DNA of 40,000 nt from Planctomycetaceae bacterium (GTDB taxonomy: Bacteria; Planctomycetota; Planctomycetia; Planctomycetales; Planctomycetaceae). Positions within the stretch are counted from its first letter, which is position 1. Each line of letters opens with the position of its first letter. Location: NCBI GenBank assembly GCA_027489895.1, contig JAIXZD010000288.1:1-40000 (forward strand), given 5' to 3'. Of the stretch, positions 22,387 through 22,665 are shown in pieces. The notes under the pieces were generated by a model that was given only the letters and a program-made list of their open reading frames with translations, was not told the origin of the DNA and ran no database searches. A program made the translations under genes and the position numbers.

Positions 22387-22632
22387 GCCAGTGTGACCGC
22401 ATGGCTGGGGAACTCGCCCAAGGTGGCGGCGACGAACTACCTCATGGTGACCGACGAAGATTTTGACCGGGCCGCTGGTGAAACGACGCGCATTCCGACG
22501 CGCGCGGTCCCAGTACCGGGGGGAAATGAGCGGAATCCAACCCCGGAAATGCGAAAAACCCCCGAAAAATCGGGGGTTTCTCACAAATCAGTGGCCGGGG
22601 CAGGATTTGAACCTACGACCTCGAGGTTATGA
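22387..22632 (+). pseudogene. C-terminal remnant of a tyrosine recombinase (integrase)
   Basis: The frame encodes VTAWLGNSPKVAATNYLMV followed by TDEDFDRAAG. This closely resembles the end of planctomycete phage-type integrases (HVVxAWLGNSxxVAxxHYLQVTDxxFxxAA), including the catalytic tyrosine (TAC 22438-22440). Upstream of about 22387 the frame loses recognisable similarity and lacks the catalytic Arg/His/Arg region, so only the last ~60 residues survive. The usual His before the Tyr is Asn here. The open frame runs on into the opposite-strand tRNA gene, as integrase genes beside their tRNA target often do. Confidence 0.65.
22554..22580 (-). terminator. Terminator of the initiator tRNA gene
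   Basis: AAACCCCCG (22556-22564) pairs with CGGGGGTTT (22571-22579) around a 6-base loop. Read on the minus strand the stem is followed by TTTTTCGC. It begins 12 bases after the tRNA 3' end and is a standard rho-independent terminator. Confidence 0.88.
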
Positions 22633-22665
22633 GCCTCGCGAGCTACCAGGCTGCTCCACCCGGCG
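22592..22665 (-). tRNA. Initiator tRNA-fMet (anticodon CAU)
   Basis: The 74-base sequence folds into a full cloverleaf: acceptor 7, D stem 4 with a 9-base loop, anticodon stem 5 with loop CTCATAA, variable AGGTC, and T stem 5 with loop TTCAAAT. Initiator hallmarks are the unpaired 1:72 position and the A11-U24 pair. Two details differ from the usual bacterial initiator. The 1:72 mismatch is C-C rather than C-A, and pair 29:41 is A-U so the G-C run is only 30:40 and 31:39. CCA is not encoded. It has its own promoter and terminator and lies opposite an integrase remnant. Confidence 0.95.

Follow-up and report, generated by a model that had tools for sequence, protein, structure and literature searches.

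An Integrase Remnant at the Initiator tRNA Gene of a Planctomycetaceae Bacterium, and a Family of Integrases with a Predicted Attachment Site inside Their Own Gene

Introduction

The suicidal integrases of archaea (SSV, pTN3, and pT26-2 types) carry their att site inside the integrase gene, target tRNA genes, and are split on integration, three features that recur in the planctomycete integrase family described here. In the sections of a 2021 review that deal with them (PMC8371274), the split is described as leaving the catalytic domain on an inactive fragment, the families carry PF16795, and self-disrupting integrases are stated to be exclusively archaeal. In bacteria, the nearest idea is, as far as the consulted parts of PMC4557955 describe it, the repressor of mycobacteriophage BPs, which has attP in its own gene. 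In this integration-dependent immunity, the site is located toward the 3' end of a coding gene, as in our family, and integration shortens the repressor C-terminus from 136 to 103 residues. A further likeness is found in the genomic islands of tRNA genes (Islander database, PMC4383910), in which the element restores the tRNA 3' end and a displaced fragment marks the far end. In the open-licence literature, a body that leaves bioRxiv and most subscription papers outside, we found no report of a bacterial attP located inside an integrase gene.

We analysed a stretch of 40,000 nucleotides from a Planctomycetaceae bacterium (hereafter the window), which belongs to a contig of 47,747 bp (C455). A sequence-only reading of this stretch had seen in it the end of a tyrosine recombinase gene pointing into an initiator tRNA gene, and had interpreted this layout as the scar of an integrative element.

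The Integrase Fragment and the Initiator tRNA Gene

The features of the locus are the following:

22390–22590, plus strand: tyrosine integrase C-terminal remnant of about 67 codons, up to the tRNA edge (tblastn, family profile, DNA similarity)
22438–22440, plus strand: catalytic Tyr codon (sequence; alignment of 16 relatives)
22546–22590, minus strand: tRNA terminator hairpin, within the integrase reading frame (−29.7 kcal/mol; 0 of 200 shuffles as stable)
22591–22632, plus strand: integrase-frame codons antisense to the tRNA, GAGFEPTTSRL and then TGA (ORF list)
22592–22612, no strand assigned: predicted att core, from the tRNA 3' end to the T-loop (by analogy with the extent of the core in integrase/tail pairs of relatives)
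22591–22665, minus strand: tRNA-Met(CAT) with initiator features (ARAGORN; Rfam RF00005, 58.8 bits; marks by eye)

The open frame at 22255–22632 on the plus strand encodes SLASVTAWLGNSPKVAATNYLMVTDEDFDRAAGE. It crosses the tRNA terminator and ends at the TGA at 22630–22632, 41 nt into the tRNA, as the frames of intact relatives likewise do; its similarity to these relatives sets in abruptly at about 22390. The identification of an integrase C-terminus with its catalytic Tyr was confirmed by homology. Indeed, a catalytic-domain profile built from 16 relatives, the window being left out, matches the frame over 22390–22482 (E 1.1e-9), which is its sole match in the window, and tblastn aligns the fragment with contig C218 of the same genome (53% identity, E 7.6e-19) and with the 493-aa frame of a relative (E 1.3e-9). 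The DNA identity to C218 is 70%, from 22401 on into the tRNA, and fragment matches are found in 34 of 59 genomes, its own included (E ≤ 0.001). The sequence-only reading had taken the lack of any integrase match in a profile search as a refutation of its call. With general profiles this outcome does literally occur, the short fragment giving no match in Pfam, PHROGs, or PDB sequence searches; the family profile nevertheless recognises it. The frames of C218 and C543, two contigs of the same genome, pass the PF00589 cut-off, and the C218 integrase finds no match among phage records.

This piece is a remnant and not an enzyme, because the C-terminal piece alone remains, the complete catalytic set being missing, and because the codon before the Tyr encodes Asn in the window versus an invariant His in 16 of 16 relatives. 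This His-to-Asn change fits the decay of a pseudogene. The rest of the integrase is absent from contig C455. On the other hand, the reading of an integrase frame into a tRNA is the usual state of the intact relatives and not a mark of decay.

The tRNA was called on the opposite strand by both ARAGORN and Rfam, and its 3' end faces left, i.e., toward the integrase fragment, in agreement with the sequence-only reading. Inspected by eye, it has C1 and C72 unpaired, an A11:U24 pair, and an AGG/CCU variant of the anticodon-stem signature; we take the C1xC72 mismatch and A11:U24 to be initiator marks. Used as a query, it gives a single match in its own genome (E ≤ 1e-8), and an initiator tRNA is present in 53 of the 59 genomes, this one included. 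A hairpin comparable to that of the window lies between integrase and tRNA on C218. Moreover, another Met(CAT) tRNA of the same genome (G000, contig C39, L030 2466–2540) has downstream of it a hairpin closely similar to that at 22546–22590, and no integrase, so this type of terminator also exists without an element.

The abrupt loss of similarity at about 22390, in an assembly of 575 contigs (93% complete, 2.7% contamination), could also come from a chimera, in which the fragment would have been misjoined to the tRNA or to the left-hand genes, the true locus holding a whole integrase. We consider such an artefact extremely unlikely: the junction with the tRNA is the same as in intact relatives, the His-to-Asn change fits a pseudogene, and among the matches listed for this genome no other fragment-matching integrase piece stands at an initiator tRNA.

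The Lost Element and Its Surroundings

The loss of an element at the initiator tRNA of the window is well supported, both by the homology of the fragment and by an element that occupies the same tRNA in a relative, and the interpretation as a scar is upheld to this extent. In genome G028, contig C43 (probably JAHBXW010000007.1, Planctomyces sp. ACE_PLA29) carries an intact integrase at the initiator tRNA, the last 20 nt of which are repeated 9.0 kb away in the same orientation and followed by another terminator-like hairpin. The initiator tRNA had been taken for the attachment site, and this locus establishes it as an integration site of the family. The genes of the 9-kb element (L171 1–10000) include the integrase and a ParB-like protein, while five other ORFs tested gave no Pfam or PHROG match at E ≤ 0.01. 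At its far end, a minus-strand ORF that directly follows the copied core ends in LALIVERWGELPESARAAIDVEVRAALGVD and shares the frame of the integrase.

We examined the initiator tRNA loci of 29 relatives, 25 of which have a 3' flank of at least 1 kb. A family integrase is recognisable at two of these 25, at full length in G028 and in part in G027; the layout is thus sporadic among relatives. At five loci with no recognised integrase (L127, L130, L134, L135, and L140, i.e., three among the 25 and two with short flanks), the frame downstream of the tRNA weakly resembles the fragment (E 2.6e-6 to 3.2e-4), a likeness that may merely reflect the shared terminator and tRNA. In G040, a copy of the 3' half of the initiator tRNA (G040:C4:1452405-1452455, L167 about 5406–5456), 84% identical and with no tRNA called, lies 38 kb from the whole tRNA in the same orientation and is possibly an old far end. 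A half-tRNA match on contig C299 of G011 was rejected as an att copy, the contig ending there.

The duplicate of the attachment site, which the sequence-only reading expected, did not appear. Neither in the window nor anywhere else on its contig of 47,747 bp does the tRNA 3' end occur a second time (as judged by exact matches of at least 13 nt), and the matches listed for the assembly as a whole comprise, beyond this end itself, other tRNA genes and short chance matches. Likewise, none of the candidates for the orphan tail described below that were found in this genome is an ORF associated with the core of the window.

The genes to the left (copper oxidase, SCO, and surface protein) had been suggested as former cargo. 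They occupy the side of the tRNA on which the element must have stood, and two genes have a slightly lower GC content, the multicopper oxidase (60.1%) and a cytochrome-peroxidase-like gene (59.8%). Against their being surviving cargo, which we judge unlikely, no left boundary is found, and the GC content is flat, with 62.7% for 13000–22590 and 63.4% for 22666–40000, with no step; as a cargo signal it is uninformative. Moreover, type II secretion-like genes (named by eye) are interleaved on this side, and the surface-protein ORF (19648–22245 of the window, left of the remnant) is part of a large paralogous set, with 16 further matches in its own genome. The surface protein matches one of 58 other genomes and the right-hand VOC gene five of 59, its own included (E ≤ 1e-5 for both). 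With the VOC gene in five and the surface protein in two of the 59 genomes (own included), this set holds no close relative for a synteny comparison with an empty site.

Integrase Frames, Orphan Tails, and Codon Phase

The nearest relative of the fragment is the intact integrase on C218, which adjoins a tRNA-Glu and whose element has its far end on C52 (core of 17/18 nt, longest exact run 14). A second integrase of this genome, on C543 at a tRNA-Val(CAC), has its far end on C151 (21-nt core), and a third one, on C383 at a tRNA-Val(GAC), is cut by the end of the contig. Of four tail candidates in this genome, the two strong ones pair with the Val and Glu integrases; the two weak ones show nothing tail-like by eye.

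Integrase frames commonly end within an opposite-strand tRNA. In a set of 33 loci, window included, 22 frames stop inside the tRNA, three run past it, two stop before it, and six have no tRNA called; in the best 80 of 541 named loci, 62 stop inside a tRNA or tmRNA, five run past, six stop before, and seven have none, the share of tRNA-ending frames being biased upwards by the gathering profile (A2), which includes tRNA-encoded columns. A tmRNA and not a tRNA holds the stop in six of the best 80 loci (L399, L412, L419, L434, L442, and L445). The integrase of G015 falls just short of the tRNA.

Integrated elements have, at their far end and beyond the copy of the tRNA 3' end, an orphan ORF that carries a two-helix tail, which is conserved in sequence among relatives. 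Similar ORFs turn up widely, both with the G028 tail as the query and with a profile of 10 rows, the latter of which matches 171 of 248 genomes of the class (E ≤ 0.01 per genome), and not every match need be an integrase/tail arrangement. We assembled 37 integrase/tail items, i.e., 22 same-contig pairs chosen by eye (same strand and expected order), two cross-contig pairs of the window's genome, and 13 named loci; at least one combination, on contig C15 of G228 (92 kb, opposite strands), was a misfit and was left unpaired. Thirty-one of the 37 items were scored first; five had no tRNA call, and the Val pair of the window's genome was added in a rerun. In the first scoring, a clear core was present in 25 of 31 pairs, and in 24 of these 25 the integrase and the tail agreed in codon phase (p 6e-11 against 1/3), while of the six pairs without a clear core, four were in phase and two were not. 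In the rerun, 25 of 26 clear-core pairs are in the codon phase of the integrase, against a mean of 10.2 and a maximum of 20 in 100,000 random re-pairings, none of which reaches 25. All three phases occur among the 26 pairs (14, 8, and 4).

The exact cores mostly measure 17–24 nt, approximately from the tRNA 3' end to the T-loop, with extremes of 14 and 42, L407 apart. The latter, the lone out-of-phase pair, is a self-match over 150 nt. At this locus, from about 1432 onward, a tail-like ORF is located on the host side, just past the tRNA-Gln into which the integrase reads, and it may reflect a tandem or phage-borne tRNA arrangement. When cores were defined as longest common substrings, G056 and G040 came out of phase, with the substring off the tRNA end; this definition was superseded by a search restricted to the tRNA end.

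As judged from these sequences, the recombination core of the family is located inside the integrase reading frame, and the remainder of the frame is found at the far end. In the window itself, the tRNA side of the split integrase alone is present. By analogy with the relatives we infer that its architecture was split, since neither a second core nor a tail was found there.

The Unsplit Form and Its Predicted Structure

In seven of 77 viral contigs, integrase and tail form one ORF and none of these adjoins a tRNA; independent cases are fewer than seven, the L262 and L265 integrases being identical, and the tail match of L279 is weak (E 0.059). In six others the integrase runs into or past a tRNA, and none has the tail in its ORF. 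The L263 integrase, 82% identical to that of L262 over 433 residues, passes through a tRNA-Ser(GCT) where L262 continues to the tail. Contig L292 is clearly circular, with exact terminal repeats of 123 bp, and its integrase reads through the junction and on into the tail; the terminal repeats of L279 measure 69 bp. Outside this set, on contig C21 of genome G165, integrase and tail are one ORF, and no tRNA was called in a stretch of 2.5 kb. In L279 and L292, both of 7.4 kb, the neighbours of the integrase-tail gene include a prohead-protease-like and a helicase-like ORF (by eye), as in small phage satellites.

Together, the orphan in-phase tails and the single ORFs of viral contigs indicate that attP lies inside the integrase gene. 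The locus might otherwise be read as an ordinary scar, with attP outside the integrase, which is the rule for bacterial islands, a frame that enters the tRNA simply for want of an earlier stop, and tail ORFs that are unrelated small genes of the far end. In the remaining 64 of the 77 viral contigs, the ORF has no tail and no tRNA is present (in four it runs off the contig), so part of the family must be arranged conventionally, and the failure of general profiles to recognise the window piece also favours this reading. It would leave unexplained, however, the equal codon phase of 25 of 26 clear-core pairs, the conservation of the tail in sequence, and the occurrence of integrase and tail in one ORF in seven viral contigs, in G165, and across the junction of a circular contig; we hold it to be very unlikely.

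The structure of the L262 integrase was predicted with AlphaFold2 (mean pLDDT 83), from an alignment of 32 rows, few of them with the tail. In the model, a linker at residues 398–467 has a pLDDT below 50 and includes the core peptide, from residue 433, and a C-terminal two-helix hairpin follows at 469–495 (pLDDT 88–93, down to 79 at the end). As the core is held in a disordered linker and followed by a folded hairpin, integration is predicted to sever the protein between its catalytic part and a small folded tail.

Proposed Mechanism

Very probably, the fragment at the initiator tRNA is the tRNA-side end of an integrated element, the rest of which has been lost, and this element belonged to a planctomycete-wide family that has attP within its own integrase gene, in the 3' portion. 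The sequences of relatives show that the full-length integrase consists of a catalytic part, then a linker that includes the att core, and lastly the two-helix tail, and that recombination at the core splits the gene. Integration replaces the tail by codons that are antisense to the tRNA of the host. At the tRNA, the catalytic part remains whole, in a frame that continues through the terminator and the tRNA 3' end and, as a rule, stops before the tRNA is crossed; at the opposite end of the element, the tail is left as an orphan ORF behind a duplicate of the tRNA 3' end. In the window, the same integration would have taken place at the initiator tRNA, and a later deletion would have removed most of the integrase along with the cargo and the far end. 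The right end would have been spared because an essential tRNA, the sole initiator tRNA found in this genome, depends on it for its 3' end and its terminator.

The catalytic domain being whole on the tRNA side suggests that the enzyme is not inactivated by integration. The C-terminal segment of a tyrosine recombinase packs against the adjacent subunit, which makes a change of activity by tail exchange plausible. The protein would in this way report whether the element is free or integrated, the full-length integrase acting in the free form and the re-tailed one in the integrated form. We tentatively propose, as a possibility somewhat less probable than not, a switch at the protein level, in which the tRNA gene rewrites the integrase C-terminus and removes the tail, the full-length enzyme integrating and the re-tailed one excising or staying latent.

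If this switch were real, a single stretch of DNA would serve, in Planctomycetota elements, as attachment site, as tRNA 3' end and terminator, and as integrase coding sequence. The arrangement makes directly testable whether an integrase senses its own integration by its C-terminus. It also accounts for those planctomycete integrase genes that end in peptides such as GFEPVTSTV, and the core together with the orphan tail provides exact ends for mobile elements in a phylum where delimiting them is hard.

Comparison with Known Systems

The closest fold to the L262 model is that of lambda integrase (PDB 1z1b, Foldseek E 8.7e-11), with 16% sequence identity; relative to it, L262 has in addition the disordered linker with the att core and the C-terminal hairpin. 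The family also differs from the islands of the Islander database (PMC4383910) in that the displaced fragment is here the junction of a split integrase gene as well. In BPs, according to the parts of PMC4557955 on this system, integration re-ends the repressor, whereas in the planctomycete family it would re-end the integrase itself, the new end being antisense to a tRNA gene. Finally, in contrast to the archaeal suicidal integrases, the family is bacterial (Planctomycetota), and the two members tested match PF00589 and PF13102 and have no match to PF16795 (E ≤ 0.01). The catalytic domain lies ahead of the split point, is left whole, and gains tRNA-encoded codons, so the arrangement need not be suicidal. 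Planctomycete genomes contain a bacterial form of the self-splitting integrase.
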